DNA of 28,441 nt from a virus. The translations under genes were made by a program, and so were the position numbers. Each line of letters begins with the position of its first letter. Within the stretch, counting starts at the first letter, position 1. The stretch is taken from IMG/VR virus record IMGVR_UViG_3300020020_000134, positions 1-28,441 of that record; one strand, written 5' to 3'. Shown piece by piece: positions 167 to 20,235 of this stretch. A model generated the notes under the pieces. That model saw only the letters and a program-made list of their open reading frames with translations, was not told where the DNA came from and ran no database searches.

Positions 167-200
167 TTGCTATTTCGGGGTCTTGTGAATTAAGATGACT
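167..200 (+). promoter_or_regulatory. Possible promoter for the VRR-NUC gene
   Basis: TTGCTA (167-172), an 18-nt spacer and TAAGAT (191-196) lie just before ATGACGAAC at 201, the start sequence shared by the leaderless genes of this window. The -10 to ATG distance is only 4 nt, unlike the 6 nt seen elsewhere, so the assignment is weaker than the others. Confidence 0.4.
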
Positions 201-230
201 ATGACGAACCACTCGGAAGGAGGGGAGATT

Positions 231-527
231 ATGAGTCAGCCAGAATCCAAACTTAGTCGCCGCATCATGGAGGTGCTACGACTGGAGGGTTACTTCTGCT
301 TCAAGGTACACGGTAGCGAGTACATGATGGCAGGCCTACCGGACATCATCGTATGTGCAGAAGGCAAGTTCATCGGAATCGAGGTGAAAATGCCTCAGTC
401 TCGCGGCAATGTCTCCCCTGTCCAGCGGTTGGTCCACACCAAAATCGAGCACGCGGGAGGCGTCGCTCGGGTAGTGTGCTCCCCATCAGAAGCCCTATCC
501 GTCGTAAAGGAAGCCCTCAATGCGTAG
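231..527 (+). CDS. VRR-NUC domain nuclease
   Basis: A 98-residue protein covering essentially one VRR-NUC domain, a PD-(D/E)XK-type nuclease fold. Visible motifs are GLPD at about 35-38, ExK as E51-V52-K53 after a predicted beta strand, and a downstream Gln (PVQR) in the following helix. Phage stand-alone VRR-NUC proteins are thought to cut branched or structured DNA during recombination or packaging; the substrate here is not known. The start at 231 is chosen because AAGGAGGGG lies 6 to 13 nt upstream. An in-frame ATGACGAAC at 201 could give a longer leaderless form, MTNHSEGGEI plus the rest. The 3' end overlaps the next gene by 8 nt. Confidence 0.85.
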   Translation: MSQPESKLSRRIMEVLRLEGYFCFKVHGSEYMMAGLPDIIVCAEGKFIGIEVKMPQSRGNVSPVQRLVHTKIEHAGGVARVVCSPSEALSVVKEALNA

Positions 528-3435: not shown

Positions 3436-3469
3436 GGCAGGGAAAGCATAATTTTGCTGACGTTAGCAG

Positions 3470-3498: not shown

Positions 3499-3500
3499 GA

Positions 3501-3540: not shown

Positions 3541-3580
3541 AAAGACGCAACAGCCCATGGCGCAACATTGAGGGAGTATC

Positions 3581-3787: not shown

Positions 3788-5880
3788 TGGTCACACAGGC
3801 CGAAGTTGAAAAGTCTCTACGGCTGATCAGCAGAGCATGGGGGAAGAAGCAGGCCGGATATGTCTTCTTCCCATGGATCGATCGCAAGGTTCAACGCGAG
3901 ACTGGCAAGCGACGCAAGGGTTTCCACGAGGGACCCGCTTTTCTATGGCCCAAGCAGCGAGAAGACATCGTCCAACATATCCTCACCCACACCAATAAGG
4001 CACGGGAACATGACGTCTACTGGTCGACCAGCTTGTTTGAGTACCCCATGCGCCGTGAGGATGTGGCCATGGACGAACACGCTCTTTGGGCAGACCTCGA
4101 TTATGTCGACCCCAGCACCATCGACCAGTATCCCCCCACCATTGCCTGGGAATCGAGTCCGGGTCGTTATCAAGCTCTCTGGGTAGCACAACAGGGCGAC
4201 TTCCAAGGCTCTTCCTGGCCGGGCAACGAGAACCAGCGCATGACCTATATGCTCGGCGCGGATGCATCGGGCTGGGATTCAGTTCAGCTGCTGAGAGTAC
4301 CGGGTCTCCCCAATCACAAGCCAGAGAACCGACGGGCTGATGGAACATACCCTCAGGGTAAGATTCTCTGGCACGATGGTCCTTCCTACCTCCCCGGTGA
4401 TTTCGCTGAGTTGCCTCCAGTTGTCATGGGCCCTGACTCCGAACTTACCGACGCCCTCGCCTCAGACATTGAGGGTGTGGATAGGATCGAGGTTATCGCA
4501 CGTATCAAACTCAAACTGAACCACCGAGCAAGGGAGCTATTGAATGCCCGAGAAGCAAGCGGGGACAAGTCGGATCAACTCTGGTATCTCATTCGATGCC
4601 TTGCTGACGTCGGACTTTCGACCGCGGAGATCGTCTCGGTGGTTCGGGAGACGGTCTGGAACAAGTTCCGGGATCGCCACGATGAACTTCGTCGCCTCAT
4701 CGCCGAAGCATCGAAAGCCATCGCCAAGCGTTCTGACGAGACTCTTGCGAAGCTGGACAAAGAGGGGGAAGTAGAAAATGAGGTCGAGCGGCCGTCACCT
4801 CAGCGTCTTGGTTTCCTCCTCAAGAATATCAAGAAACCGAAGTATCTCATTCAAGGTGTTCTCACTGAAGGTGCATGTGGTTTTATTGCCGGAGAACCGA
4901 AGTGCTATAAATCATGGGTGGGCCTCGACCTTGCTCTCTCAGTCGCAACCGGAGCGGATTTTCTTGGCCACTTCAGGGTTCAGAATCCAGGCCCAGTTCT
5001 TTACATCCAGGAAGAAGACCCCGCACCCACTCTCAAGAATCGCTCCGCAAAAATCTGGGTGAACAAGAGCACCGACAAGTTCGAGCTTGTTCGGAATGAG
5101 AATGAGGCTGGTTTATACTGGCTTCCGCCCGAGCAGGACGCAGCATTCGACCCGAACATCAACGCCTATATCCAGCAGGGTTTGATTATCTCAAATGAAG
5201 CCTGGCAGATTTGGTTAGATGAGACACTCGCGGCCGGCATGGATGGCGAACCCTACAGGGTCATGATTATTGACACGCTCATGATGACCGCAGGCGAGGT
5301 CGATGAGAATCGGTCACAAGAGATGACCAATAAGATCTTCAAACCGCTCAAGCTACTTTCGAGGAAGCACAATGTTGCAGTCTTGGTCGTTCACCACATG
5401 GGTAAAGCTGATCGTGCTCGGCCGGGTCAACGTATGTTGGGTTCGGTCGCCAACCATGCTTGGGGTGAAGACAGTATGTACTTGTCACGATCAGGTCTCA
5501 AGGATGTACGCATTGACCTGGAATCAAAGACGGTTCCGGCTGCAACGTATCGTATGACCGATGTCCATAACCTCTGGTGGACACCAACAGTTCAGCCCTG
5601 GAGAGAAGATGACACCGAGGCGAATGAAGCCCAAGAGGGTCATTCCACACCCAGCAGGCGAACCAGTCGAGCGCGATCGGAACGCAAGGTTCGCACTGAT
5701 CCGGCACTGGATGCTCTTCGCGAGGCACCTGTATCGGGGATGAGCACCAGCGAACTTGCCGATGTGCTGAAGGTCAATCGTTCTACGGTACACAAGCGAA
5801 TGGTGAAGTTGCTTGACGCAAGCAAGGTGCAGCGGGTTCAGCTTCCAGGAGGCACGAATCTTTGGAGAATGCCCGTATGA
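3787..5880 (+). CDS. Primase-helicase fusion with RepA-like AAA ATPase and C-terminal HTH
   Basis: A 697-residue replication protein. Residues about 20-200 look like a RepB/AEP-type primase-polymerase domain: an acidic LWADLD motif near 100 and a SSPGRYQALW motif near 125. Residues about 340-590 are a RecA-fold RepA-like (AAA_25) ATPase with Walker A GEPKCYKSW at about 369-377, Walker B RVMIIDT at about 491, and VLVVHHMGK near 534. In the Walker A the usual Gly before Lys is Tyr, a variant I know from actinophage RepA-like proteins. The last 60 residues form a helix-turn-helix (MSTSELADVLKVNRSTVHKR), possibly for origin binding. The start is GTG with GGGGGAGGAG upstream. Primer synthesis and unwinding at the phage origin is the likely job. 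Confidence 0.88.
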   Translation: MVTQAEVEKSLRLISRAWGKKQAGYVFFPWIDRKVQRETGKRRKGFHEGPAFLWPKQREDIVQHILTHTNKAREHDVYWSTSLFEYPMRREDVAMDEHALWADLDYVDPSTIDQYPPTIAWESSPGRYQALWVAQQGDFQGSSWPGNENQRMTYMLGADASGWDSVQLLRVPGLPNHKPENRRADGTYPQGKILWHDGPSYLPGDFAELPPVVMGPDSELTDALASDIEGVDRIEVIARIKLKLNHRARELLNAREASGDKSDQLWYLIRCLADVGLSTAEIVSVVRETVWNKFRDRHDELRRLIAEASKAIAKRSDETLAKLDKEGEVENEVERPSPQRLGFLLKNIKKPKYLIQGVLTEGACGFIAGEPKCYKSWVGLDLALSVATGADFLGHFRVQNPGPVLYIQEEDPAPTLKNRSAKIWVNKSTDKFELVRNENEAGLYWLPPEQDAAFDPNINAYIQQGLIISNEAWQIWLDETLAAGMDGEPYRVMIIDTLMMTAGEVDENRSQEMTNKIFKPLKLLSRKHNVAVLVVHHMGKADRARPGQRMLGSVANHAWGEDSMYLSRSGLKDVRIDLESKTVPAATYRMTDVHNLWWTPTVQPWREDDTEANEAQEGHSTPSRRTSRARSERKVRTDPALDALREAPVSGMSTSELADVLKVNRSTVHKRMVKLLDASKVQRVQLPGGTNLWRMPV

Positions 5881-5967
5881 CCTATCATGCTCGATCATGT
5901 GATTTATCGCATCACGCATATTGAGCGATTCTGCAATACTTCAGGAATGAATGGGAAGGAAACTCTA

Positions 5968-6303
5968 ATGAATGATCGCACGATCATGATGCGCATTGAT
6001 TTGGTGGCGCTCGAAACTCGGAAGGAAGAGGATCGACAGGATCAAAAGTGGGGTCAGCAAGACCACCCCGATGGCACTGGACCCACTGACGGGAACCTGA
6101 GTGATCGCAATAGAGCTAAGTGGGTTACTCAACGAGAATTCGCCAAACGTAGGGGAACCTGGCGACAGGTTCTTGAGGAGGAAGTAGCTGAAGCTTTCGC
6201 TGAAAGCGATCCCGATCTGCTCAAGGCAGAACTCATTCAAGTGGCTGCAGTAGCACAGCAATGGATTCGTGCTATCAATCGCCGGCAAGAAGAACAACAA
6301 TGA
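5968..6303 (+). CDS. MazG-like all-alpha NTP pyrophosphohydrolase candidate
   Basis: A 111-residue protein. KWGQQDHPDGTGP near 27-39 and TWRQVLEEEVAEAFAESDPD near 64-83, followed by LKAELIQVAAVAQQWIRAI, match a phage/actinobacterial family that I associate with all-alpha (MazG/dCTPase-like) nucleotide hydrolases. The EEEVAE and downstream ELIQVA acidic positions would bind Mg. Nucleotide pool cleaning or alarmone removal would be the family role; the substrate is not shown. The start at 5968 is chosen for GGAAGGA upstream; an earlier ATG at 5887 lacks one. It shares the unusual actctaATG start context with 6322. Confidence 0.6.
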   Translation: MNDRTIMMRIDLVALETRKEEDRQDQKWGQQDHPDGTGPTDGNLSDRNRAKWVTQREFAKRRGTWRQVLEEEVAEAFAESDPDLLKAELIQVAAVAQQWIRAINRRQEEQQ

Positions 6304-6321
6304 GAAAGAGATGAAACTCTA

Positions 6322-6531
6322 ATGGCTAAGATGCAACCCATTGAGGTTATCTGCCCTGTCTGTGAACAGGTAGTCAAGATCCCCGTCAGGGTTGAGATTC
6401 GGGATGCCGAGTTTGCTTACCTGGGAATGGCTGAGCTTCTCCTTGACCCTGATATGAGTGAACTACAGGCTCATATGTTCAAGCATCAACTTGATGATAC
6501 AGAAGCTATCGCTGAGCTGGGGAATGGCTGA
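6322..6531 (+). CDS. Small Cys-pair protein, unknown function
   Basis: A 69-residue protein beginning MAKMQPIEVICPVCEQVVKI. A single CPVC pair near residues 11-14 is followed by a beta strand and an acidic helix with a His (AHMFKH). This is half of a zinc ribbon, so metal binding might need a dimer or the His residues. The preceding GAGATGAA is a weak ribosome binding site. The stop overlaps the next start by one base (TGATG). No named family. Confidence 0.7.
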   Translation: MAKMQPIEVICPVCEQVVKIPVRVEIRDAEFAYLGMAELLLDPDMSELQAHMFKHQLDDTEAIAELGNG

Positions 6532-6785
6532 TGCCTGAACAAAGGGAGGAGTCAGTAATTCTCACGGAGTTGCATGAACTCTTAAATGAGCTCTCGATCA
6601 TTCGAGAAGTTGGTGACGAGGGCGACTCATTCAATGACTGGGTATTCATTGGTCATGTCAGCAATCTCGATGATAGTGAGAAGGATGGATACATCACCAT
6701 GACCCAACGAGGCCTGACCCCTAGTCACATCGTTTATGGTCTACTACGAGAGGCCACCCTACGCTTCGAAGCAGCAAGACTATGA
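6531..6785 (+). CDS. Small acidic protein, unknown function
   Basis: An 84-residue protein starting within the stop of the gene before it and ending in a 4-nt overlap with the SLOG gene. The N-terminal half is a helix rich in Glu and Leu (ILTELHELLNELSII). The middle (DWVFIGHVSNLDDSEKDGYI) is probably beta, and the C-terminus is again helical (HIVYGLLREATLRFEAARL). There are no cysteines or known motifs. It is clearly part of the operon; function unknown. Confidence 0.7.
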   Translation: MPEQREESVILTELHELLNELSIIREVGDEGDSFNDWVFIGHVSNLDDSEKDGYITMTQRGLTPSHIVYGLLREATLRFEAARL

Positions 6786-7156
6786 CCACCCACTTCAGAT
6801 TGCTTGTCACTGGATCAAGAGATTGGACAGACAGAGAAGTAATCCAGCTACTGCTAGCAAAGGTGTATGATCAAGTAAAGGATCGAGACCCGATTCTCGT
6901 GCATGGGACGGCACGCGGAGTTGATGAGATGTCCTCCAAGATCTGGCTCGAACTAGGGGGTGCAGTAGAGGCTCACCCTGCAGACTGGGATCGCTATGGA
7001 AAGCAAGCAGGTTTCGTCAGAAACCAACAGATGGTTGACATGGGCGCAAACTTATGTATAGCATTTATCAAGAACAACTCGCGCGGGGCGTCCGCATGTG
7101 CGCGTCTCGCCGAGAAAGCCAGCATCAAGACATGGAGGATTACTGATGAGGGTTAA
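6782..7156 (+). CDS. SLOG-family (DUF2493, YspA/cpYpsA-like) nucleotide-binding protein
   Basis: A 124-residue Rossmann-like protein with the full DUF2493 pattern: LLVTGSRDW at 7-15, LVHGTARGVDEMSSKI near 38-53, and HPADWDRYGKQAGFVRNQQM followed by VDMGANLCIAF near 64-95. This family belongs to the SLOG superfamily (with DprA and LOG), whose members bind nucleotides or nucleotide-derived ligands. In phages the role is not settled. The start overlaps the gene before it by 4 nt. Its neighbourhood with a MazG-like gene fits nucleotide handling or interference with nucleotide-based host defence, which is inference. Confidence 0.85.
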   Translation: MTTHFRLLVTGSRDWTDREVIQLLLAKVYDQVKDRDPILVHGTARGVDEMSSKIWLELGGAVEAHPADWDRYGKQAGFVRNQQMVDMGANLCIAFIKNNSRGASACARLAEKASIKTWRITDEG

Positions 7157-7310
7157 AGTGGTGGTGAACTTCAACTCTGAAGAGACCCATGATCCGGCCG
7201 ACATTGTGGGTGTGGCAGCAAGCCTCATCCAGCAGGCCTTCGCCAACATCCCCGGCGTTGCCCTCGTGGGTATCGTCGAAACCAGTGAAGAGGAAGAGGT
7301 GCCCGCGTGA
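7146..7310 (+). CDS. Small acidic protein, unknown function
   Basis: A 54-residue protein starting MRVKVVVNFNSEETHDPADI and ending in an acidic SEEEEVPA tail. The start at 7146 is preferred because GGAGG sits 10 nt upstream; it overlaps the SLOG gene by 11 nt. The layout beta strand, helix (VGVAASLIQQAFANI), beta strand (VALVGIV) is a small alpha/beta domain. Its GTGA end overlaps the next gene. I do not recognise a family. Confidence 0.7.
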   Translation: MRVKVVVNFNSEETHDPADIVGVAASLIQQAFANIPGVALVGIVETSEEEEVPA

Positions 7311-7603
7311 GCGTACAAGGTGAAACAAGAGCAGGTATCCCCGGCAAAAGCTGGGTAGTTCGCAAGGCAGGTGGTAAATGGCAACTCGTCAAGAGCTACT
7401 GGACCCCCGGGTATACGCCCGCGCATACGGAGAGCCAGGGCGACGCCAAGCGACAGGCCCTTGCGAATCTCGAAGCGCAGCTTGCGGTCATCCAGCAGGG
7501 CATCCAAGAGGTGAAGGATCTGCCCTTCATCTGCGAATCAGGCTGCGATGATGCCCTTCCTTACACCGTCGATCCAGAGTGCCCAGTGCACGGGTGGGTA
7601 TAA
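7307..7603 (+). CDS. Small Cys-containing protein, unknown function
   Basis: A 98-residue protein starting with GTG in a 4-nt overlap (GTGA). The first half (GKSWVVRKAGGKWQLVKSYW) looks like a small beta domain. A helix follows (AKRQALANLEAQLAVIQQGI), then CESGCDD and a final ECPVHGWV, giving three cysteines and a histidine that could hold a zinc ion. The stop overlaps the next ATG by one base (TAATG). The role is unknown. Confidence 0.7.
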   Translation: MSVQGETRAGIPGKSWVVRKAGGKWQLVKSYWTPGYTPAHTESQGDAKRQALANLEAQLAVIQQGIQEVKDLPFICESGCDDALPYTVDPECPVHGWV

Positions 7604-7842
7604 TGGCCAAATCCCCTCCTCCCACGATATCCAAGATCATTACCGCTTATCCAGATGGTAGTATCATGGAACTGGATCTCCCACTAGGCTGGGAACTTCA
7701 GGGCGAGCTGGGCTGGATAGATAATCTCGGTAACTTTATCCCTGAGTTCGGCGTAGATCCTGCTATTGCCAAGATGTACAGCTGGCAACCAGTTGAGCGC
7801 CGCACTCTCATCACATACACCACACGAAAGGAAACACACTAA
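7603..7842 (+). CDS. Small protein, unknown function
   Basis: A 79-residue protein whose ATG is inside the preceding stop (TAATG). It begins MAKSPPPTISKIITAYPDGS and is mostly short beta strands with several Trp, Gly and Pro residues (PLGWELQGELGWIDNLGNFI), so a small beta-rich domain is likely. It ends with a Lys/Arg/Thr-rich segment that encodes the AAAGGA ribosome binding site of the next gene. No family is recognised. Confidence 0.7.
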   Translation: MAKSPPPTISKIITAYPDGSIMELDLPLGWELQGELGWIDNLGNFIPEFGVDPAIAKMYSWQPVERRTLITYTTRKETH

Positions 7843-8078
7843 TGTCCACTGAACCCATTCCCACCATCTCCACCGAACAAGCTCAGCGCCATGACGTCAA
7901 TCCCGCAGGTGCCCCGGCTCCAGGTCCCGCGCCAGTATGGCTCCAGGTCCATGTCGGCAATGAGACCTACGATCTGGCCACGCAGGGTCTCATCAATGAC
8001 CTGCCCGATGACGCCATTCAGGCCATCGCCGGCGCTACCGTTAAGCTGCTGACCCGCCTCCGCGATGAGGCTGAGTAA
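7842..8078 (+). CDS. Small Pro/Ala-linker protein, unknown function
   Basis: A 78-residue protein, last in the long operon, with AAAGGA before its ATG. Residues 1-30 are Pro/Ala/Gly rich and probably disordered (NPAGAPAPGPAPVW). Residues 31-78 form a compact unit with two strands (WLQVHVGNETYDLA) and two helices (AIQAIAGATVKLLTRLRDEA). No known motif. Inverted repeats follow in the gap to 8335. Confidence 0.7.
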   Translation: MSTEPIPTISTEQAQRHDVNPAGAPAPGPAPVWLQVHVGNETYDLATQGLINDLPDDAIQAIAGATVKLLTRLRDEAE

Positions 8079-8300
8079 CACGGCTAACCTACTGAGCTCC
8101 ATTCCCAAGGGTGTGGGGCTCACTAGTGTGTTCTCTCTCGCGCGGGCATACGCGTTCGTGCCCATACGCGCCCCTTCGCATACGCAACCTAAAGGTTGCG
8201 GTATGCAACGAAATGCTATGTCTGCAACATATACGGGATATGATAGCTACTTCTGACTGTTGCTTCGACTTTTCCGGATCATTATTTATGCTCAAAAGGG
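8079..8300 (+). promoter_or_regulatory. Gap with CATACGC repeats and hairpins
   Basis: Three CATACGC copies occur at exactly 16-bp spacing (8147, 8163, 8179). A GGGCA/TGCCC hairpin (8144-8163) and an imperfect hairpin from GCATACGCAACC (8178-8189) with its near complement up to 8206 follow the last gene of the operon and may end transcription, although there is no T-run. ACGAAATGC at 8209-8217 matches the repeats at 3501 and 3523. Confidence 0.45.
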
Positions 8301-8329
8301 TTGACCCCTCATCGCCGATGCGATAGCAT
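8301..8329 (+). promoter_or_regulatory. Leaderless promoter of the LAGLIDADG-like gene
   Basis: TTGACC (8301-8306), 17-nt spacer, TAGCAT (8324-8329), then 6 nt and ATGACCAAC at 8336. The start codon coincides with the expected first transcribed base. No Shine-Dalgarno sequence is present. Confidence 0.85.
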
Positions 8330-8335
8330 TAGTAC

Positions 8336-8635
8336 ATGACCAACGATGAAGCATGGGCTGCGGGTTACCTCTCAGCCTCAGGGACTCTCTTTTTGTCCCA
8401 TCAAAATGGCAAGTCAACCATCTGGCTCACAGTCAAGTCAACCCTAAGGGAAGATTCCGTTAACCGATTGGGTCAAATCATCGGGTGCAACGTTCGAGAC
8501 TCGAGCCAAGGCCGCAAACTTACGATTACTGGTGAGCCTCTACATCAGTTTATGCGTAGGGTTTGGGATGGGCTCTCAAGGTCCCGTCAACTGGAGTACG
8601 CCAAGCTTAGGAAGGAAGCCCATGCGCTTGTATAG
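8336..8635 (+). CDS. LAGLIDADG-like protein lacking the catalytic acids
   Basis: A 99-residue protein that looks like one LAGLIDADG half-domain: a WAAGYLSASGTL segment at 7-18 where homing enzymes have AGLxDGEG or similar, then a beta hairpin (STIWLTVKST), a helix (EDSVNRLGQIIG), a strand, and LTITGEPLHQFMRRVWDGLS. The acidic residues expected around 12-15 are Ser/Ala, so DNA cutting is unlikely. Sequence-specific DNA binding, for example as a regulator, is more plausible. The start is the leaderless ATG of a consensus promoter. It overlaps the next gene by 14 nt. Confidence 0.7.
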   Translation: MTNDEAWAAGYLSASGTLFLSHQNGKSTIWLTVKSTLREDSVNRLGQIIGCNVRDSSQGRKLTITGEPLHQFMRRVWDGLSRSRQLEYAKLRKEAHALV

Positions 8636-8819
8636 AAATTCACGGGGACAAGTGAAGGTTCCGACTTATGGGCAATGGGCTGCGTATGAACTGGGGATGG
8701 CAATCACGGCTATGGTTGTGGCTGTTGCGATTAAAACTGCGCAGCATAAACTCAGGCTGAATGACTGGGAGATGCGGGAGATAGTTCGACAGTGGGCGGA
8801 GGATGAGAGCAATGGCTGA
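8622..8819 (+). CDS. Small single-span membrane protein
   Basis: A 65-residue protein. The start at 8622 has AGGAAG just upstream and overlaps the gene before it. Residues 1-20 are basic (MRLYRNSRGQVK), and residues about 27-42 form a short hydrophobic helix (LGMAITAMVVAVAIKT) that may span the membrane. The C-terminal 22 residues form a charged amphipathic helix (DWEMREIVRQWAEDES). No family recognised. Confidence 0.65.
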   Translation: MRLYRNSRGQVKVPTYGQWAAYELGMAITAMVVAVAIKTAQHKLRLNDWEMREIVRQWAEDESNG

Positions 8820-9060
8820 AGTGGATTATCGGTATATTGAGGACTGCAAGATACTCGCTCAGGTTGCAGGGCAAGCTCTCTCACATATTCGGTTTGAGGA
8901 GCCGATGTGGCGAAAGCTAAGAGATGCTTTGGTACCATTTGATAATCTTGGGAAGTGGGACCCGGAGAAATCTCCTCGGCTAGACGATGATGATCTGATG
9001 AGATTACTTGAAGAAGATCCGGAGGACGAAACTGAGGCTGGGGGGAGCACTGGAGGCTAA
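8812..9060 (+). CDS. Small acidic protein, unknown function
   Basis: An 82-residue protein. The ATG at 8812 is preferred over that at 8803 because GGAGG lies 9 nt upstream of it. The N-terminal half is helical (VDYRYIEDCKILAQVAGQAL). The C-terminal half is strongly acidic (RLDDDDLMRLLEEDPEDETE) and ends in a Gly/Ser tail. Two hairpins follow directly. It overlaps the membrane-protein gene by 8 nt, so the two are coupled. Function unknown. Confidence 0.65.
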   Translation: MAEVDYRYIEDCKILAQVAGQALSHIRFEEPMWRKLRDALVPFDNLGKWDPEKSPRLDDDDLMRLLEEDPEDETEAGGSTGG

Positions 9061-9061
9061 A

Positions 9062-9140
9062 AGGAAGGCCCCGGGTCGAGCCCCGGGCTCGACGGAGGGC
9101 TAGGCGGAAGGCTGGATGGAGTACTATCCACCTTCCGCTT
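9062..9140 (+). terminator. Double hairpin terminator
   Basis: GTCGAGCC (9075-9082) pairs with GGCTCGAC (9086-9093) around a CCG loop. A second hairpin pairs 9104-9117 with 9126-9138 (GCGGAAG arms with one bulge) and ends at TTCCG. A third, GGCCC-TTC-GGGCC, lies near 9166-9180. Together they should stop the 8336-9060 transcript. Confidence 0.65.
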
Positions 9141-9184
9141 CCGTATGTCATGCATGCACGTCCCTGGCCCTTCGGGCCGGTCCG

Positions 9185-9630
9185 CACATCACACTACCAG
9201 ACGTGGATGAGTCAGAGGGTGGGGAGATTTGTGTCGAGTGGAGGAGGAGGGGATTGAAGGGGGACTGAGACTGAAGAATGCTGCTGTCTGTGTGTCTGAT
9301 GAGTGTCCGAGTTTGGGGGAATGGGGTAGGGCACGATGAAATCCGGGTGAAGGTAACTGAAGGATGCCAATGGGACAGGGGAAGATTGACAGGTAATTGC
9401 CCGGAACAACGTTCAGGGTTTGAGAGTTTGAGAAGAAACCTATAGGGTTTACGGAGCACCTGGATCATGGGAGTTTCGTCCGTCTCGGTACTTTCTGCAT
9501 TTATTATTGCCCGGACAGGCTCAGAGTATGGAGGTTCGGACATTTTGGCTCGAGTTTGATCTTTTCTTGCAGATCATGTGCACATACGCATATAGGCATA
9601 GGTTCCACGGACTCCTTGAGAGCCCCATTT
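9185..9630. other. Purine-rich gene-free stretch
   Basis: The plus strand is unusually rich in G and A up to about 9540 (for example GGAGGAGGAGGGGATTGAAG) with no credible gene on either strand; the open frames on the minus strand are low-complexity Ser/Pro/Leu readings without start signals. It lies between the terminators and the candidate origin. Confidence 0.5.
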
Positions 9631-9631
9631 T

Positions 9632-9882
9632 TTATTAACAGGGTTATGCACAGGACGCCATATGTCCGGAAGTTATGCACAGGGTGGACACATGGTGTCT
9701 GAAAGCGCTTTCCCGCGGACACATGGTGAAAGAGGGGCATCTCCTGCGGGTGCATAGGGTCAGGAACGCTCTCAGGAGGCGTCAGGAGCGATCGCATGCC
9801 GCGTCGGAATGCTAGCTATCCGCCGTGACCAAACCCCCTTAGGAAGCGCTTTCCGTGTGTTTGAAAATTGAGGGACACATGG
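9632..9882. other. Candidate replication origin with DnaA-box-like sites and repeats
   Basis: Two TTATGCACA sequences (9644-9652, 9673-9681) match the DnaA-box pattern TTATNCACA and lie 29 bp apart, next to an AT-rich TTTTTTATTAACA whose end (9632-9640) is a degenerate third box. GGACACATGG occurs three times (9686-9695, 9717-9726, 9873-9882). Two palindromes share AAGCGCTTTC (9701-9712, 9842-9854). No gene is present. Such clusters are typical of origins, but no function is demonstrated. Confidence 0.5.
9807..9820. repeat. GTATGCTAGCATAC-type palindrome, copy 1 (degenerate)
   Basis: GAATGCTAGCTATC, sharing the ATGCTAGC core with four other sites. It is followed 4 bp later by GTGACCAAAC. It lies inside the candidate origin region, upstream of the 9930 promoter. 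Confidence 0.6.
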
Positions 9883-9895
9883 CGTCAAATAAACC

Positions 9896-9923
9896 TTGAC
9901 AAAGTGAGGGGGTGTGATATGAT
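9896..9923 (+). promoter_or_regulatory. Leaderless promoter of the 9930 gene
   Basis: TTGACA (9896-9901), 16-nt spacer, TGA-TATGAT (extended -10; hexamer 9918-9923), then TTATAT and ATGACGAAC at 9930. GTCAA at 9884-9888 forms a short inverted repeat with the TTGAC of the -35 box. Confidence 0.88.
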
Positions 9924-9929
9924 TTATAT

Positions 9930-10217
9930 ATGACGAACCAAACGATTCCCACACCCTATTGCGAACGCGACGAATGCAAGGGCAAAGTCGTTCATGCTGC
10001 CGTTTGGCACCAATTCGACTCGTCCGTGCAAGAAGTCGCGTCCAATCGTGACGTCGAAAGAACGTTCGATGATTTCTACGATCGATTCTCGGAAATGATG
10101 GTCGATGCCGGGATGCCGTTCCCGAATAACGGGGAAACCGAGACGGATGATGATGAAGCACACGAATTCCGGGACTGGTTTACGGCGCAAGTAATCGGGC
10201 AATTTCTTCGCCCGTAA
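9930..10217 (+). CDS. Small acidic protein from a leaderless gene
   Basis: A 95-residue protein starting MTNQTIPTPYCERDECKGKV. Two cysteines near 11 and 16 lie close to the N-terminus. The rest looks helical, with FDDFYDRFSEMMVDAG and an acidic ETETDDDEAHEFRDWF segment, ending in a hydrophobic TAQVIGQFLRP. There is no ribosome binding site; the ATG lies 6 nt after the -10 box, so a leaderless mRNA is expected. It is a single-gene unit facing the 10602 gene. I do not recognise a family. Confidence 0.75.
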   Translation: MTNQTIPTPYCERDECKGKVVHAAVWHQFDSSVQEVASNRDVERTFDDFYDRFSEMMVDAGMPFPNNGETETDDDEAHEFRDWFTAQVIGQFLRP

Positions 10218-10228
10218 TTCGCTCCTCA

Positions 10229-10247
10229 GGCGCCCCACGAGGGCGTT
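10229..10247. terminator. Hairpin between convergent genes
   Basis: GGCGCCC with GGGCG(TT) around the loop CACGA. It lies between the convergent genes ending at 10217 and 10333, so it could serve either direction, but it lacks a long T-run. Confidence 0.5.
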
Positions 10248-10268
10248 CTGGGGTGTCAAAAAATGCCA

Positions 10269-10282
10269 GGAATGCTAGCATA
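10269..10282. repeat. GTATGCTAGCATAC-type palindrome, copy 2
   Basis: GAATGCTAGCATAC with a perfect ATGCTAGCAT core; GTGACACAAC follows after 3 bp. It is located between two convergent genes. Confidence 0.7.
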
Positions 10283-10332
10283 CTTCGTGACACAACACCG
10301 CGGGAGAACGCCGCAGGCGGCGCCCCACGGGG

Positions 10333-10602
10333 TCAGGACCCCCATCCTCCCATTCCCGTGCGGAGTTGGGGAACGATCGCGCGATATGATGCGATGCTCA
10401 TTTCGATAAACTTCCCCGCTTCCGCAACTTCGAGTTCGAATGTGACAACTTCTCCAGTTGTCAACTCGAAAGTCATTTGCACTTTGGGGAGCATTCCCTG
10501 CGCCTCATTGAAAATGGCACGGGATGCCAGGGCCTTGACAACGGGGCGCGCATATGCATCGCGCATCGCTTTGCGTTGGCGTCGATTTAGGCGATTGATC
10601 AT
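10333..10602 (-). CDS. Small basic protein from a leaderless gene
   Basis: An 89-residue protein starting MINRLNRRQRKAMRDAYARP, a strongly basic N-terminus that could contact nucleic acid. A beta-rich part follows (VQMTFELTTGEVVTFELEVA) and then a helix (AGKFIEMSIASYRAIVPQL). No cysteines. The ATG lies 6 nt downstream of a TAGCAT -10 box on the minus strand with no ribosome binding site. It converges on the 9930 gene and diverges from 10830. Family unknown. Confidence 0.75.
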   Translation of the reverse strand: MINRLNRRQRKAMRDAYARPVVKALASRAIFNEAQGMLPKVQMTFELTTGEVVTFELEVAEAGKFIEMSIASYRAIVPQLRTGMGGWGS

Positions 10603-10608
10603 GCATTA

Positions 10609-10637
10609 ATGCTACCACGATATGCGATGCGCGGCAA
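10609..10637 (-). promoter_or_regulatory. Leaderless promoter of the 10602 gene
   Basis: Read on the minus strand: TTGCCG (10637-10632), 17 nt, TAGCAT (10614-10609), 6 nt, ATG at 10602. It has the same geometry as the plus-strand leaderless promoters. Confidence 0.82.
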
Positions 10638-10691
10638 GGCAATTGGCAATTTTATTTGGGGCGCATGCGCATACCATGACCAGGAGGCAAA

Positions 10692-10747
10692 GTCAAGGCA
10701 ACTACGCCAAACAAAGTTTTTAATTTAATTTGGATATTTGCCTTGAC
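10692..10747. repeat. 10-bp inverted repeat overlapping a -35 box
   Basis: GTCAAGGCAA (10692-10701) and TTGCCTTGAC (10738-10747) are perfect inverse copies 36 bp apart. The right arm contains most of the -35 box of the 10830 promoter, so this is a candidate operator, possibly for autoregulation by the DNA-binding-like product of 10830. Confidence 0.6.
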
Positions 10748-10770
10748 GAGGGGGTCGAGTGTGGTATGAT
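10743..10770 (+). promoter_or_regulatory. Promoter of the 10830 gene
   Basis: TTGACG (10743-10748), 16-nt spacer, TATGAT (10765-10770), followed by TTATATAT exactly as at the 9930 promoter. The start is expected near 10777, giving a 53-nt leader with AAGGAG before the ATG. It is a near-copy of the 9930 promoter but leadered. Confidence 0.85.
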
Positions 10771-10829
10771 TTATATATCGAATCAAATGCACCCCGCAAA
10801 TGATCGATATGATACAAGGAGTGATACAA

Positions 10830-11081
10830 ATGGCAACGATCAACATCTCCGAACTGGCCACCGAACTCGACACCGACCCCCGCACCGCGCGCAAGTTCAT
10901 GCGCTCGATCACCCCCGCCGAGGGACAGCCCGGCAAGGGCGGGCGATGGGGCATCGAGAAGCGCGAGGTGCGCTCCCTCAAGACGAAGTTCGCCAAGTTC
11001 GCCGCCGAACTCGCCGAGAAGCGCGCATCGCGCGAGGACGCCGATGAGGCGCCCGAGGTCGAGGAACTCGACGCCGAGTAG
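10830..11081 (+). CDS. Winged-helix-like DNA-binding protein with acidic tail
   Basis: An 83-residue protein. Residues about 3-58 (INISELATELDTDPRTARKF, MRSITPAEGQPGKGGRWGIE, KREVRSLKTKFAKF) match the middle domain of the 1679-2296 protein in order and spacing: a helix-turn-helix, a Gly-rich GKGGRW wing, and a recognition of KxxFxxF at the end. The tail is acidic (EDADEAPEVEELDAE). A small DNA-binding regulator or architectural protein is likely. The start is set by AAGGAG 9 nt upstream. The inverted repeat at its promoter makes self-regulation plausible. Confidence 0.8.
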   Translation: MATINISELATELDTDPRTARKFMRSITPAEGQPGKGGRWGIEKREVRSLKTKFAKFAAELAEKRASREDADEAPEVEELDAE

Positions 11082-11089
11082 GCATCGCA

Positions 11090-11126
11090 CGATCGCCCCT
11101 GATTCGCAAGGATCGGGGGACGATCG
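11090..11126 (+). terminator. Hairpin terminator of the 10830 gene
   Basis: CGATCGCCCC-TGAT (from 11090) pairs with ATCGGGGGACGATCG (11112-11126) with small mismatches. Directly downstream of the stop; only a weak T-rich stretch follows. Confidence 0.65.
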
Positions 11127-11225
11127 GCGTGTGTTAAAGTTTGAGCGATTTCGCTCGTGACCCCCTCGCGCATGCTGGTGTGGAAGGCTCCAGGCGGCGA
11201 TCTGAGGCGATTTGAGGCATGCCCC

Positions 11226-11239
11226 GTATGCTAGCATTC
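11226..11239. repeat. GTATGCTAGCATAC-type palindrome, copy 3
   Basis: GTATGCTAGCATTC, one base from the full palindrome, followed 3 bp later by GTGACAAAC. It lies between convergent genes 10830 and 11480. Confidence 0.7.
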
Positions 11240-11294
11240 CGAGTGACAAACTCCCCCACACGCTCCTATGCCTCCCTTTCGGGGCGAGGGGGGT

Positions 11295-11480
11295 TTAATT
11301 GAGGAGCAATCGAATCTGGCGAATTTCATGCGAGATGAGGGCGAATTCCCTGACCGCAGAGCGGTAGATCGAGGAGTCGCGCAGTCGCGCATCGGCGAGT
11401 GCGGTGATCGTGTTTCGCATTGCGAGTTGATCAGCGAGAGCGTCGGTCAGGGCGGATTCGAGGATTTCCTTGTCATTCAT
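11295..11480 (-). CDS. Small helical protein from a leaderless gene
   Basis: A 61-residue, probably all-helical protein (MNDKEILESALTDALADQLA, then RNTITALADARLRD and EFALISHEIRQIRLLLN). The heptad-like leucine and isoleucine spacing suggests a helical hairpin or dimer. The ATG is 6 nt after a TAGAAT -10 box with no ribosome binding site. It diverges from the 11565 gene across only 84 bp. No family recognised. Confidence 0.7.
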   Translation of the reverse strand: MNDKEILESALTDALADQLAMRNTITALADARLRDSSIYRSAVREFALISHEIRQIRLLLN

Positions 11481-11486
11481 GCTTCT

Positions 11487-11516
11487 ATTCTACCACGACC
11501 ATCGCGCATGATGCAA
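11487..11516 (-). promoter_or_regulatory. Leaderless promoter of the 11480 gene
   Basis: Read on the minus strand: TTGCAT (11516-11511), 18 nt, TAGAAT (11492-11487), 6 nt, ATG at 11480. Confidence 0.75.
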
Positions 11517-11529
11517 GGCCAATTTATGC

Positions 11530-11558
11530 TTGACATCATGAGCGGGTCATGGTAGCAT
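11530..11558 (+). promoter_or_regulatory. Leaderless promoter of the 11565 gene
   Basis: TTGACA (11530-11535), 17 nt, TAGCAT (11553-11558), 6 nt, ATGACGAAT at 11565. It is back to back with the 11487-11516 promoter, so both directions could be controlled by one regulator. Confidence 0.88.
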
Positions 11559-11564
11559 GGCATT

Positions 11565-11780
11565 ATGACGAATTCACTTACCCGCACCAAGGCCGACCCG
11601 AAGCCCGCATTGGGCATTCTCGACACCGCCCATATCGCAAACCAGTGCACCACCGAGTTCATGAATGACAAGGGTGACCACATCCCGATGTTCGAACCGC
11701 GCGATGAAGACGTACTCGATTCTCAACTCGACACCCTCTTCAATGCGACTGGCGAACCCCGCCAAACTATCTGGCGCTGA
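11565..11780 (+). CDS. Small protein from a leaderless gene, unknown function
   Basis: A 71-residue protein starting MTNSLTRTKADPKPALGILD. It is mildly acidic, contains one Cys, and has a helical centre (IANQCTTEFMND) and an acidic, probably helical part (DEDVLDSQLDTLFNA) before a GEPRQTIWR end. The start is placed by the leaderless promoter; there is no ribosome binding site. It forms its own transcription unit ended by a good terminator. No family recognised. Confidence 0.75.
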   Translation: MTNSLTRTKADPKPALGILDTAHIANQCTTEFMNDKGDHIPMFEPRDEDVLDSQLDTLFNATGEPRQTIWR

Positions 11781-11811
11781 AAGGCCCCGGGGGCCCTCAC
11801 GAGGGGCTTTT
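11780..11811 (+). terminator. Rho-independent terminator of the 11565 gene
   Basis: AAAGGCCCC (11780-11788) pairs with GGGGCTTTT (11803-11811) with one bulged G. The stem begins in the stop codon of the gene and ends in a T-run. Confidence 0.8.
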
Positions 11812-11832
11812 CGGGTGTAGAATGCCAAAAGG

Positions 11833-11846
11833 GTATGCTAGCATAC
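11833..11846. repeat. GTATGCTAGCATAC palindrome, copy 4 (perfect)
   Basis: The full 14-bp palindrome, located between the convergent genes ending at 11780 and 11922. Unlike the other copies it is not followed by a GTGAC-type sequence. Confidence 0.75.
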
Positions 11847-11921
11847 ATGGCGGCCCGATATCGCCGGAAACGCGCTCCAGAACCCCCGCGATCGGAAGAT
11901 CAAGCGAGGGCCCGGGAGGGG

Positions 11922-12092
11922 TCAGATGTCGAACTTCTGGAAGTACTCGTTCTGAGTGAGGTCGACCCTCTTGTACGGAAGGCCGGTGAGAAGCGCATCG
12001 CCGAAGAACGGAGTCTGGTATGTCGACCCATCCCTGCGAGTCACTTCGTAGACGCGGTAGGTGGTTGCCTGAGTGTCGGTGTTGTTCGTCAT
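11922..12092 (-). CDS. Small protein from a leaderless gene, unknown function
   Basis: A 56-residue protein starting MTNNTDTQATTYRVYEVTRR and containing a GSTYQTPFFGDALLTGL stretch and a final LTQNEYFQKFDI. It looks like a small beta sheet with one helix. The start ATGACGAACAAC is 6 nt after TAGCAT on the minus strand, matching the leaderless pattern exactly, which is strong support for so short a gene. It converges on 11565 and diverges from 12199. Function unknown. Confidence 0.75.
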   Translation of the reverse strand: MTNNTDTQATTYRVYEVTRRDGSTYQTPFFGDALLTGLPYKRVDLTQNEYFQKFDI

Positions 12093-12098
12093 ACCTTG

Positions 12099-12127
12099 AT
12101 GCTATCACGACTTGGCACCAATGCCCT
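12099..12127 (-). promoter_or_regulatory. Leaderless promoter of the 12092 gene
   Basis: Read on the minus strand: TAGCAT (12104-12099), 6 nt, ATGACGAACAAC at 12092. The -35 at 17-nt spacing (12127-12122) is AGGGCA, a poor match, so this promoter may need an activator. Confidence 0.6.
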
Positions 12128-12163
12128 AGGACTATTTTGCCCTAAATAAAACTGATTTGGACC

Positions 12164-12192
12164 TTGACACTGGCGCTCGGGTCAGGCATAAT
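12164..12192 (+). promoter_or_regulatory. Leaderless promoter of the 12199 gene
   Basis: TTGACA (12164-12169), 17 nt, CATAAT (12187-12192), 6 nt, ATGACGAACAAC at 12199. Confidence 0.88.
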
Positions 12193-12198
12193 TGAAAT

Positions 12199-12345
12199 AT
12201 GACGAACAACACCGCAACTCAAATCGCCGCTCAGGTCGCCTCACGCTACGAGGACCTGAAGTTCGCACCGCTCGACCGCAAGGCCGACACTTCGCGCAAC
12301 CACAACCGCACCGCACGCCGCGCCCAGAAGCGCAACCACCGCTAG
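12199..12345 (+). CDS. Very small basic protein from a leaderless gene
   Basis: A 48-residue protein starting MTNNTATQIAAQVASRYEDL and ending in a strongly basic KADTSRNHNRTARRAQKRNH segment, suggestive of RNA or DNA contact. It is leaderless by the promoter geometry. Its first four codons are identical to those of the divergent 12092 gene, so the pair presents matching start regions on the two strands. Its TAG is followed by AGGAGCAGGG, the ribosome binding site of the next gene, making a two-gene unit. No family recognised. Confidence 0.75.
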   Translation: MTNNTATQIAAQVASRYEDLKFAPLDRKADTSRNHNRTARRAQKRNHR

Positions 12346-12356
12346 GAGCAGGGATC

Positions 12357-17514: not shown

Positions 17515-18206
17515 TGATTGACACCATCATGCTGCTGATGGGCATAACTGGTGTGCTGGGTCTCATTTTTATGAGAATCCGACGCCCAGTAGAAACCAAG
17601 CAGTTCTTTCTCGATATCGCCCTGACCTTACTGAACCCCTGGTTGAAGCGGCGTATTCGCAAGCGATACAAGCGAGTGCCTCGTCGAAGCGTTGCCTTCC
17701 CACCTGAGTTGATACAATACTACAGGCGGCGCTCGGACTCGCGCCGGGAGTACATGCAGCTCTGGGTGGAACGATTCATCGATGTCTGCGATAGTACTGG
17801 TACTCGCGTGCCCGACGATATTCTGCCGCCACATAGCCCCCTGCGTCGTACACTGAGGATCTATAGCGATGTATATGAGGTTCATGAGCCTCAGGTTACC
17901 AAGCGTAATGGAATGGGCCAGATCAATAATGTTCATCCCCGATTTCATCCACACCCCGTCACTTGCCCCGGTTACTTTAACATGGATGAAGTTAGGGATG
18001 GTGGGGGAGTTACCGTCACAACCTATGCTAGCTGTAGTCTTTGTGGGTGGTCGATAAATATGAGTAGAGCTCAGGTATGGGAACTACAAAATGAAGCCTC
18101 CCGTAGGAAAATGTACCAGGGCCCCATTGATGGAATACCAGGTGAAAACACAATGAGAGCCATACAAAAACTGAATAGCTACGGATTTCGAGCGGAGGAC
18201 TTATGA
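17514..18206 (+). CDS. Membrane-anchored protein ending in a peptidoglycan-binding-like half repeat
   Basis: A 230-residue protein. Residues about 3-22 form a membrane span (DTIMLLMGITGVLGLIFMRI), followed by a very basic stretch (RRIRKRYKRVPRRS). The middle holds CPGYF and CSLCGW cysteines, a possible zinc site. The last 31 residues (MYQGPIDGIPGENTMRAIQK, LNSYGF) match the repeat unit of the endolysin at 23876 (for example YSGPADGVPGANTIKGMQR). A protein anchored in the membrane that touches the cell wall would fit, which is inference. Confidence 0.75.
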   Translation: MIDTIMLLMGITGVLGLIFMRIRRPVETKQFFLDIALTLLNPWLKRRIRKRYKRVPRRSVAFPPELIQYYRRRSDSRREYMQLWVERFIDVCDSTGTRVPDDILPPHSPLRRTLRIYSDVYEVHEPQVTKRNGMGQINNVHPRFHPHPVTCPGYFNMDEVRDGGGVTVTTYASCSLCGWSINMSRAQVWELQNEASRRKMYQGPIDGIPGENTMRAIQKLNSYGFRAEDL

Positions 18207-18622
18207 TGACCAGCTACCTTACTGAGGTGGGTTTTCCCATCCCGTGGGAGCTATCTCATCAGGTGACAGAGATTACTCTTCCCATTCGCTGCACCACTGA
18301 TGGATACAGTTGCGGTCGTATCGTGGTGACGGGGGCGAAGAATGATGCCTGCTACATTGCCTGGTATCTCGACCCTGAATACCGAGGCAAGGGTCTCATG
18401 TTCGATGCGGTTGCACAAACGTTACCCTGGTTGTTCACTCGTTGGCACCGTGTAGTAGCCATGATATGGCCAGCCAATGCTCGATCTAAGCAGCTTGCGG
18501 AGCGTGCAGGGTTTCGCTATGAAGGCACTGCTCGGTTGCTACATAAGCAAGCTGATGGCTCATACATGGACGTGGAATTCTGGGCAATCCTGAGAGAGGA
18601 TAGTGATGTCGGCGACATTTGA
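18206..18622 (+). CDS. GNAT-family N-acetyltransferase (RimJ/RimL-like)
   Basis: A 138-residue GNAT domain. YIAWYLDPEYRGKGLMFDAV (about 50-69) contains the acetyl-CoA pyrophosphate loop (RGKGL), and NARSKQLAERAGFRYEGTAR (about 94-113) is the typical motif B end of RimJ/RimL-like enzymes, followed by the closing strand (DVEFWAILRED). The start at 18206 is preferred over 18203 because GGAGG is 7 nt upstream. The substrate (protein N-terminus, antibiotic or other amine) is not shown. It is shorter than host RimJ/RimL proteins. Confidence 0.85.
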   Translation: MTSYLTEVGFPIPWELSHQVTEITLPIRCTTDGYSCGRIVVTGAKNDACYIAWYLDPEYRGKGLMFDAVAQTLPWLFTRWHRVVAMIWPANARSKQLAERAGFRYEGTARLLHKQADGSYMDVEFWAILREDSDVGDI

Positions 18623-19094
18623 GGGGTTCGATTTCATCCATGAGCTCTATAACAAGGTCCACGATGGCGGCTATGAGCCCACACAAGAGGACATTGAAGA
18701 GTGCGCGCGGATCATGCAAATCATCATCGAGGCTCTTCGTCCCGTGATGGAAGCCATGGTTGATATTGCCCACGACGTTGTGCATACCCTGATTGATTGG
18801 TATGCTTCGCTTCCTGAGGAGATTCGGGAGGGGCTCAAGCCTTATATGGAGCCAATGGTGGTTATAGAGGAGGGTGTGGACAAGTCCGAGCCCGAGCCTG
18901 AGGCAAGGCCACACTTCAGTGAGCCGGTGTTTACAGTACGCCGCGATCAGCCGAACTACATTCCACCCGGGCAATGGGGTACTCCTCATCAGGGCATAGA
19001 CTTTGGTTTCATTTTTATCGACTCTGAGGATCCAGGTTATGCAGGGCGTGATGATGGAATTCGAGGTCGCCTTGACAGGGGTTCTGGGAGCTGA
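18606..19094 (+). CDS. Unknown protein, 162 residues
   Basis: The protein starts MSATFEGFDFIHELYNKVHD (an in-frame GTG lies 3 nt upstream; AGAGAGGA precedes). Residues 1-80 look helical (ECARIMQIIIEALRPVMEAM, VDIAHDVVHTLIDWYASLPE). The rest is Glu/Pro-rich and probably extended (KSEPEPEARPHFSEPVFTVR) with a Gly/Asp/Arg end. It overlaps the acetyltransferase gene by 17 nt. The -35 of the next promoter lies inside its last codons. No family recognised. Confidence 0.7.
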   Translation: MSATFEGFDFIHELYNKVHDGGYEPTQEDIEECARIMQIIIEALRPVMEAMVDIAHDVVHTLIDWYASLPEEIREGLKPYMEPMVVIEEGVDKSEPEPEARPHFSEPVFTVRRDQPNYIPPGQWGTPHQGIDFGFIFIDSEDPGYAGRDDGIRGRLDRGSGS

Positions 19095-19100
19095 TAGCAT
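19072..19100 (+). promoter_or_regulatory. Leaderless promoter of the 19107 gene
   Basis: TTGACA (19072-19077), 17 nt, TGA-TAGCAT (hexamer 19095-19100), 6 nt, ATGACGAACTCG at 19107. The TGA before the hexamer is the extended -10 form also seen at 12733 and 9918. Confidence 0.88.
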
Positions 19101-19106
19101 CATTAC

Positions 19107-19271
19107 ATGACGAACTCGCCCTTGCCCGATAACATACCTAGGTATGCTATTTTTAAAGGCAAAAGAGCTAGGATTGTAGGTTACGATGGTGGTAAATTTG
19201 ACATCATCGATAATCGAGACAACAAACGACGGGTCACCCGACTTCAACTCAAGTTTCTCAAGGACAAGTGA
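19107..19271 (+). CDS. Very small basic protein from a leaderless gene
   Basis: A 54-residue protein, MTNSPLPDNIPRYAIFKGKR, then ARIVGYDGGKFDIIDNRDNK and RRVTRLQLKFLKDK. The pattern of short strands with a basic end looks like a small beta-barrel (SH3-like) with nucleic-acid binding potential. The leaderless promoter with the ATGACGAAC start is strong support despite the size. The stop is 4 nt before the next ATG. No family recognised. Confidence 0.75.
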   Translation: MTNSPLPDNIPRYAIFKGKRARIVGYDGGKFDIIDNRDNKRRVTRLQLKFLKDK

Positions 19272-19275
19272 TAGA

Positions 19276-19548
19276 ATGGCTACAGCAGCAGTTCCCACTG
19301 AGATGATTTCCACTACGGAGGCCATCAACCAACTTTGGTACGCGATGCCAGAGTCGGAACGAGACAACCTGAGTCGTGAAACTTTCGAGGAGGCGGTTCG
19401 CCAAACTCGCAACCTAATGCTCGACGAGGTGTTCGATAAGTACGAGCTCGGTTATCGTCGAGGAGTCAATCACATCTTGGCTCCTGGGACCGTCGATACC
19501 AACGTGAAGACCTGGCGAGTCGAACAAACAGCTGCTCTCCCAGACTGA
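19276..19548 (+). CDS. Small acidic protein, unknown function
   Basis: A 90-residue protein starting MATAAVPTEMISTTEAINQL. It is mostly helical (WYAMPESERDNLSRETFEEA, VRQTRNLMLDEVFDKYELGY) and ends TNVKTWRVEQTAALPD. A longer frame from 19186 would overlap the preceding gene and is less likely. The ribosome binding site is the weak AAGTGATAGA. It is the last gene before the gene-free region with inverted repeats. No family recognised. Confidence 0.68.
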   Translation: MATAAVPTEMISTTEAINQLWYAMPESERDNLSRETFEEAVRQTRNLMLDEVFDKYELGYRRGVNHILAPGTVDTNVKTWRVEQTAALPD

Positions 19549-20235
19549 GGAGGGGAGGTCCCGGTCAACAGGCGACTGCGGTAGGTCCGATATCTTCGGA
19601 ACAAGAACCGGGACACACAACTAAATACTCCGGCACCAAAATCGAGTCCTTCTGGCGACTCCGTCCATCCAGATGATGGCCCCGGCGCTTTAGCTCTGCG
19701 GGGAACGAGCTACTAATAACTGAATACCTGTCTCGCAATGCATAGAGTACCCGCGCATAACAACCGGGGTGGCAAGGACAGGCGGTTTTGTTCCCCGTGC
19801 AGTAAACGGCCAACAGGGAACCTAGGGCACACACGGATCGGGAGCGCCCCATACCGCAGGTGAGGGTTTAGGCGGCACAATTTCATATGGGACGGTAGCT
19901 CACTCGGTAGAGCGACTGGCAGGTTGAGTGCGCACATGTGCCTGTTACAGGAGGTAGGAAGTTCGATTCTTCCCCGTTCCACAATGCGAGGCCGACACCC
20001 AGCGGTGCAAAGTTGCAACCCTCGCAGAAGTCCTAGGTCTTGCTCAAGATAATTACAGCTAAGCCGGCTATGAGCACGAGGCTGTCCCTAGGCACTAAAC
20101 TTCACATAGACTGCCTCGGGCCATGTTCGTCATAGCTCGCCCGGGGCGCGGGGCCCTTATGAGCCGGGGGTCAATTGGGATTACGGTATAGACAGGCTAC
20201 CATGACTGCCCTCCCCGCATTCACTTTTAAAAAAA
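19549..20235 (+). ncRNA. Candidate structured noncoding RNA region
   Basis: No credible gene in about 690 nt. Inverted repeats are dense: GTCCCGGT 19558-19565 with 19607-19614 (8 bp), enclosing TCCGA/TCGGA (19586-19600); GAGTC/GACTC (19644-19661); CCATC/GATGG (19665-19679); CTGCGGGGAAC 19696-19706 with GTTCCCCGTGCAG 19790-19802 (one bulge); CCTGTC/GACAGG (19727-19782); and TGCGAGG/CCTCGCA (19985-20026). A tRNA-like segment is embedded at 19889. Large phage RNAs such as GOLLD and ROOL are known to occur beside tRNAs, so that class should be tested; identity is not shown. Confidence 0.4.
19889..19981 (+). tRNA. Abnormal tRNA-like sequence, anticodon not assignable
   Basis: Acceptor arms GGGACGG (19889-19895) and CCGTTCC (19974-19980), a D-arm GCTC-ACTCGGTA-GAGC (19898-19913) and a T-arm GGAAG-TTCGATT-CTTCC (19957-19973) are all present and correctly placed. 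Between D- and T-arms are 42 nt instead of about 22, and no normal 5-bp anticodon stem with a 7-nt loop can be found. Possible partial stems are GCAGG/CCTGT and a CCTG-TTA-CAGG hairpin like a long variable arm. The CCA end is not encoded. It may be a decayed tRNA, an interrupted one, or part of a larger RNA. Confidence 0.5.

Follow-up and report, generated by a model that had tools for sequence, protein, structure and literature searches.

The virus fragment IMGVR_UViG_3300020020_000134 from IMG/VR (28,441 bp, analysed at its full length and hereafter called the window) is kin to Curtobacterium phage Shrew and Microbacterium phage Triscuit, and between positions 8,301 and 19,271 it carries twelve predicted leaderless genes, each with its ATG at a fixed distance behind a promoter. 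The window primase/helicase is ∼70% identical to that of Shrew and 62% identical to those of the Microbacterium phages Triscuit and Huwbert. Contigs G001, G002, G003, G005, G007, G009, G010, G011, G013 and G014, collected via the start motif itself, have core genes of the Shrew type, for the most part at 60–78% identity; by the same markers G012 was more distant, and G004, G006 and G018 were unrelated. The phage group belongs to the viruses of soil actinobacteria and, judging from its cultured relatives, the hosts are most likely Microbacteriaceae. Group counts cover 12 Shrew-like genomes or contigs (507 kb in total), in which gene starts were predicted with simple rules and no trained gene finder.

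A sequence-only reading of the window had noted twelve ATGs lying exactly 6 nt past a -10-like hexamer, an observation confirmed base by base at 12/12 sites (Table 1). The hexamer, which spans -12 to -7 relative to the A of the ATG, is TAGCAT at 8/12 starts (8336, 10602-, 11565, 12092-, 12745, 13048, 17039 and 19107), the others being TATGAT (9930), TAGAAT (11480-), CATAAT (12199) and GATGAT (14174). A TTGACA-like -35 had been claimed for most sites; it is good at 8/12 (8336, 9930, 11565, 12199, 13048, 14174, 17039 and 19107, with 5–6 of 6 bases and a spacer of 16–17), whereas 10602- and 12745 match at only 4/6 bases and the -35 of 11480- and of 12092- is weak. Not even the four-base core of a Shine-Dalgarno (SD) sequence was seen upstream of any of the 12 starts, in agreement with the reported absence of a ribosome binding site. 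Seven starts share nine bases, as had been described, reading ATGACGAAC or the same with a final T (ATGACGAAY). Both strands of the window hold nine ATGACGAAY sites against ∼0.4 expected from length alone, and 7/9 are leaderless starts, the remaining two being 201 and 20133-. Site 201, previously listed as a less certain member, does not belong to the class: it lacks a suitably spaced -10, and ATGACGAAC falls within the leader of an SD-led VRR-Nuc-type nuclease gene that, by comparison with Shrew gene 87, probably starts near 231–234 (ATGAGTCAGCC..., behind GGAAGGAGGGG). The small leaderless proteins gave no significant Pfam match and almost no PHROG matches.

Table 1. Leaderless genes of the window, with one SD-led gene excluded from the class and one leadered internal control (aa, amino acids).
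Coordinates	Strand	Promoter	Start	Gene	Remark
195..527	+			VRR-Nuc-type nuclease gene, SD-led	Not leaderless class; Shrew gene 87 comparison
8301..8635	+	TTGACC-N17-TAGCAT	ATGACCAAC at 8336	99 aa	
9896..10217	+	TTGACA-N16-TATGAT	ATGACGAAC at 9930	95 aa	
10333..10637	-	Weak -35 TTGCCG-N17-TAGCAT	ATGATCAAT at 10602	89 aa	PHROG 36836 (unknown function)
10764..11105	+	Leadered, sigma-A-type	Conserved leader (ATCGAATCAA...), SD	Small protein	Internal control
11295..11516	-	-10 TAGAAT, weak -35	ATGAATGAC at 11480	61 aa	
11530..11780	+	TTGACA-N17-TAGCAT	ATGACGAAT at 11565	71 aa	
11922..12127	-	Extended -10 TGATAGCAT, weak -35	ATGACGAACAACACCGAC at 12092	56 aa	
12164..12345	+	TTGACA-N17-CATAAT	ATGACGAACAACACCGC at 12199	48 aa	
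12711..13038	+	TTAGAC-N16-TAGCAT	ATGACCGAC at 12745	97 aa	
13013..13326	+	TTGACA-N17-TAGCAT	ATGACGAAC at 13048	92 aa	
14139..14629	+	TTGACA-N17-GATGAT	ATGACAAAA at 14174	151 aa	
17004..17272	+	TTGACC-N17-TAGCAT	ATGACGAACAACATT at 17039	77 aa	
19072..19271	+	TTGACA-N17-TAGCAT	ATGACGAAC at 19107	54 aa	

When distances of 0–40 nt were scored in the window for promoters with a -35 at 5/6 or better and an open reading frame (ORF) of at least 40 codons, an ATG at 6 nt occurred six times, against a mean of 0.17 per other distance; first-order Markov shuffles gave 0 for the window and about none for related contigs. The 6-nt peak recurs in nearly every related contig, and ATG counts by distance (0–19) run 0,4,6,0,2,3,75,6,1,1,... 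across the group. Among the 77 genes with the 6-nt geometry, 75 start with ATG and only 2 with GTG. The base before the start is C or T in 75/77, a position not used in selection, and a pyrimidine/purine step is the usual context of a transcription start site (TSS); indirectly, this suggests that the transcript begins at the A of the ATG. A reversed-pattern control in whole-record searches returned one match compared with ∼100 for the true pattern.

Of the 12 sites predicted in Shrew, about 10 match an annotated coding-sequence start (genes 15, 26, 28, 63, 79, 93, 105, 114, 116 and 119), and the terminal repeat holds further copies of predicted leaderless sites. Orthologues of the 19107 gene with leaderless geometry were found in Shrew (5 nt), Triscuit, Huwbert, G001, G003/L411 and G009, and those of the 8336 gene in Shrew (gene 105), G014 and G002; homologues of the 13048 gene occur in G010 (ATGACGAAC start) and G001 (leaderless). 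The geometry is kept between orthologues at only 45–50% identity. In Triscuit gene 21 (L413 7937-8140) and Huwbert gene 22 (L414 7971-8174) the annotated start lies 10 codons upstream of the leaderless ATG, at which homology begins, so that an SD-led and a leaderless start stand in one frame.

An unselected scan of IMG/VR with CCTTGAC-N17..19-TAGNAT-N6-ATG, the bases after the ATG left free, returned 115 distinct sites, 90 with an open ORF of at least 35 codons, at 32 to 73% GC. Leaderless geometry alone is thus not special to the Shrew-like group and is widespread in phages of all base compositions. Because it is also ordinary in actinobacteria, the earlier description of an unusual phage gene class stands for the number of such genes and their shared downstream bases, but not for the geometry itself.

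The conserved block includes the ATG and extends downstream of it. The core ATGACGAA opens 36/93 leaderless genes (34 as ATGACGAAY) and 2/310 SD-led genes. As the contigs had been found through the motif, one motif site per contig was dropped as an ascertainment correction, which left 19/70 leaderless versus 3/348 SD-led starts (p = 2e-13). Codon 2 encodes Thr in 48/77 genes and codon 3 Asn in 33/77, whereas the frequencies over the remainder of the genes are 6% and 3.5%. The Thr2 codon is ACG in 35/48 cases, versus 127/580 (22%) elsewhere in the same genes (p = 1e-12; 25/38 after ascertainment correction, p = 3e-8), which argues that bases, and not amino acids only, are conserved. Across every IMG/VR contig with a GC content of 50% or more, the promoter-plus-start composite was found with ACG at 19 sites in 13 contigs, and with ACA, ACC and ACT at 6, 7 and 1 sites, never two per contig. 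With ATGACGAAY it occurred in 15 viral contigs, several of them multi-copy; a looser scan (TAGCAT-N0..24-ATGACGAA) yielded mostly chance matches and was set aside. The enrichment of ATGACGAAY behind the TTGAC/TAGNAT promoter in related phages, a test set beforehand, was found, and the proposal that codons 2–3 are kept at the nucleotide level, on both strands and for unrelated proteins, is upheld by the ACG bias and by the enrichment at leaderless starts only. On this evidence from sequence comparison, the shared start is a nucleotide-level feature of the Shrew-like phage group.

Leadered promoters of the same phages served as an internal control. ACGAA was present within +1..+12 at 1/79 of these compared with 31/76 leaderless promoters (p = 1e-10). 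The leadered set comprised TTGAC/TAnn(A/G)T matches without a start codon at +1, many clearly from leadered genes; some of its promoter matches are due to chance, and these would weaken the difference but not produce it. In the window, the leadered promoter at 10764-11105 (+) has no ACGAAC at its transcript start, and its leader (ATCGAATCAA..CGCAACCGC..GATCGA) is common to G001, G002 and G003. The sequence-only reading had offered a signal for either leaderless translation or transcription start; the near absence of ACGAA from leadered promoters favours translation and speaks against the transcription-start version, which is not supported.

The first codons of the leaderless genes are CA-rich and weakly structured. 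CA content over +4..+21 averaged 0.68, against 0.57 for SD-led genes and 0.53 for gene interiors; the same stretch folds more weakly than in SD-led genes. In a leaderless set not selected by start, the bias was weaker and in the same direction (0.625 versus 0.552, p = 1.5e-6). G018, an unrelated 146-kb phage whose sole megablast match was a short stretch of cyanophage primase/helicase, holds ∼18 small leaderless genes in a 12-kb array (L128/G018 133,000-146,000), with promoters of the type TTGACA-N17-TACAAT-ACACAC-ATG, starts of its own type (e.g. ATGACCACCAACAACAAC) and a CA content of 0.80. Three sites of the G018-array type were also seen in L497.

Several known systems resemble parts of this arrangement. 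In actinobacterial leaderless mRNAs (Mycobacterium smegmatis and Propionibacterium acnes; PMC4633059, PMC3848588) the -10 likewise sets the TSS at the start codon and there is no SD. However, P. acnes uses GTG freely, whereas the phage class uses almost only ATG and has a strong TTGAC -35. Mycobacterial leaderless mRNAs are reported to show no downstream enrichment, unlike the phage class, where about a third of genes share ATGACGAAC; the lack of a conserved sequence after the start codon is not, however, a defining property of leaderless genes generally. Lambda cI and prophage repressor mRNAs (PMC3848588) also begin at the AUG, but are single regulatory genes rather than a class with a common start. 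The start-associated sequences (SAS, and extended ESAS) of cluster K mycobacteriophages (PMC11373665, PMC3203893) are likewise short repeats that mark many gene starts within a single phage group, some of them together with a promoter; the SAS lies upstream of the ATG, whereas the phage class shares the start codon and codons 2–3. Many small genes with apparently their own promoters and a repeated start context also occur in halovirus HF2, with its intergenic repeats (PMC8707807), and in Arthrobacter phage Atuin, where leaders are ∼30 nt with AGGAGG-type sites in contrast to the leaderless Shrew-like class. In Atuin (L478 3,600-17,000) the small genes number ∼30 and lie on both strands; many are preceded by a short leader of the type ACCAACCAAC..AGGAGG, which makes the layout a leadered equivalent of the Shrew-like one. 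According to PMC9031893, CA repeats past the start codon enhance leaderless translation in E. coli, CA-rich first codons raising both leadered and unleadered translation (Martin-Farmer and Janssen 1999, as cited there). A CA-rich stretch just past the start codon is present here as well; that enhancer is a laboratory element, whereas the phage start is natural, has a preferred ACG codon and is a candidate enhancer only.

The reading that we consider probable is a leaderless gene class whose first codons are tuned for ribosome loading. Host sigma-A-type promoters (CC-TTGAC-N17-18-TAGNAT), positioned to make the A of the ATG the first transcribed base, would drive many small accessory genes and a small number of core genes (DNA polymerase I), and ribosomes would attach straight to the AUG at the 5' end. 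Selection would keep the first codons CA-rich and unstructured, with ATGACGAAC(AACACC) as the preferred form, and such a 5'-coding sequence may raise leaderless initiation as a leaderless counterpart of the ribosome binding site. The geometry, its conservation between orthologues, the nucleotide-level bias and the restriction to leaderless starts are the observed parts of this reading; the TSS position, the gain in translation and the reason for ACG over ACC are presumed. Several points weigh against it. ATGACGAA is missing from about two thirds of the leaderless genes in the group and is thus preferred rather than required. If CA-richness were all that counted, ACC or ACA would be expected, and the G of the preferred ACG is left unexplained. 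In M. smegmatis an RTG at the very 5' end suffices, and neither natural nor selected leaderless mRNAs showed enrichment of a downstream motif (PMC4633059); actinobacteria may thus have no need of an enhancer. An interaction more specific than CA-richness is possible; that ATGACGAAC(AACACC) is a dedicated initiation element, acting through its specific sequence and not through low structure alone, and directing ribosomes, perhaps altered by infection, to phage messages as the class's own translational control is a tentative proposal that we hold to be less likely than not.

Other explanations dispense with tuned ribosome loading. The shared bases occupy +1 to +9 of the expected transcript, behind a promoter, and could be an initially transcribed sequence or a DNA site that aids transcription start, promoter escape or binding of a phage regulator, with no translation role; the near absence of ACGAA at the 79 leadered promoter matches (1/79), and a motif that is not palindromic, make this unlikely. 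We regard likeness by descent, in which promoter-plus-start cassettes of T4 type were copied or recombined before different genes, as quite improbable. Long identical starts (ATGACGAACAACACCGAC) do stand before different proteins at window 12092-, G002 13888 and G003 18801, and in L127 and L191 two tandem genes of an AT-rich contig have near-identical leaderless promoters, the result of a recent duplication. However, mobile cassettes should be identical as whole units, whereas the 17-nt spacer and the 6 nt before the ATG differ between sites whose boxes and starts are alike, which disfavours copying unless it is old.

If an N-terminal Met-Thr-Asn(-Asn) peptide were selected, say because it aids stability or targeting, the excess of Thr2 and Asn3 would follow, yet this does not explain why ACG makes up 73% of Thr2 codons and only 22% of Thr codons over the remainder of these genes. 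Few SD-led genes of the group begin with this peptide and orthologues vary at these residues, and we hold selection of the peptide to be very unlikely. Hardest to credit is the view that nothing here is phage-specific and that these are the usual leaderless genes of actinobacteria, following a start-codon preference of the host. Such genes are common in actinobacteria (PMC4633059, PMC3848588), but mycobacteria show no downstream motif (PMC4633059), and GUG or UUG starts one third of the leaderless genes of P. acnes (PMC3848588) and hardly ever those of Shrew-like phages. Moreover, in contrast to the 15 viral contigs, the composite TTGAC-N17..19-TAGNAT-N6-ATGACGAAC had 7 matches in 257 Gb of bacterial and archaeal genomes, none named actinobacterial, where chance predicts ∼6 by our own estimate from length alone. 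This comparison leaves out Microbacteriaceae host chromosomes, for which four actinobacterial plasmids (2.7 Mb, 1 site) are a weak substitute.

Other elements lie near the leaderless genes. The palindrome ATGCTAGCAT (usually GTATGCTAGCATAC or ..TTC) occurs among them at 10272, 11228, 11835 and 12678, with 5 copies in G001 and 1–2 in several relatives. It has no fixed place relative to the starts and was rejected as their regulator site; it is possibly an operator or boundary element. A phage tRNA-Asn was likewise rejected as the cause of the Asn codons, being present in the window, Triscuit, G003 and G018 and absent from most relatives; the window tRNA-Asn(gtt) lies at 19889-19982 (+), just past the leaderless region. 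No match to sigma-70 region 3 was found within the window. A Pistol ribozyme (Rfam RF02679, 41.9 bits, above gathering) at 1631-1679 (-) stands directly 3' of a gene for an acidic helix-turn-helix protein, 1679-2296(-), and was not found in L399 (right half of Shrew), L401 (right part of Triscuit) or G001 1-20000.

To our knowledge, host leaderless genes are not known to need such a nucleotide-level start signal. To the question whether anything beyond a 5'-terminal start codon has a role in leaderless translation in actinobacteria, mycobacterial data say no and phage evolution appears to give the opposite answer. Since Shrew is a cultivated member of the family, the question is testable with natural sequences. 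The rule TTGAC-N17-TAGNAT-N6-ATG also corrects start calls and reveals small genes missed by SD-based annotation.

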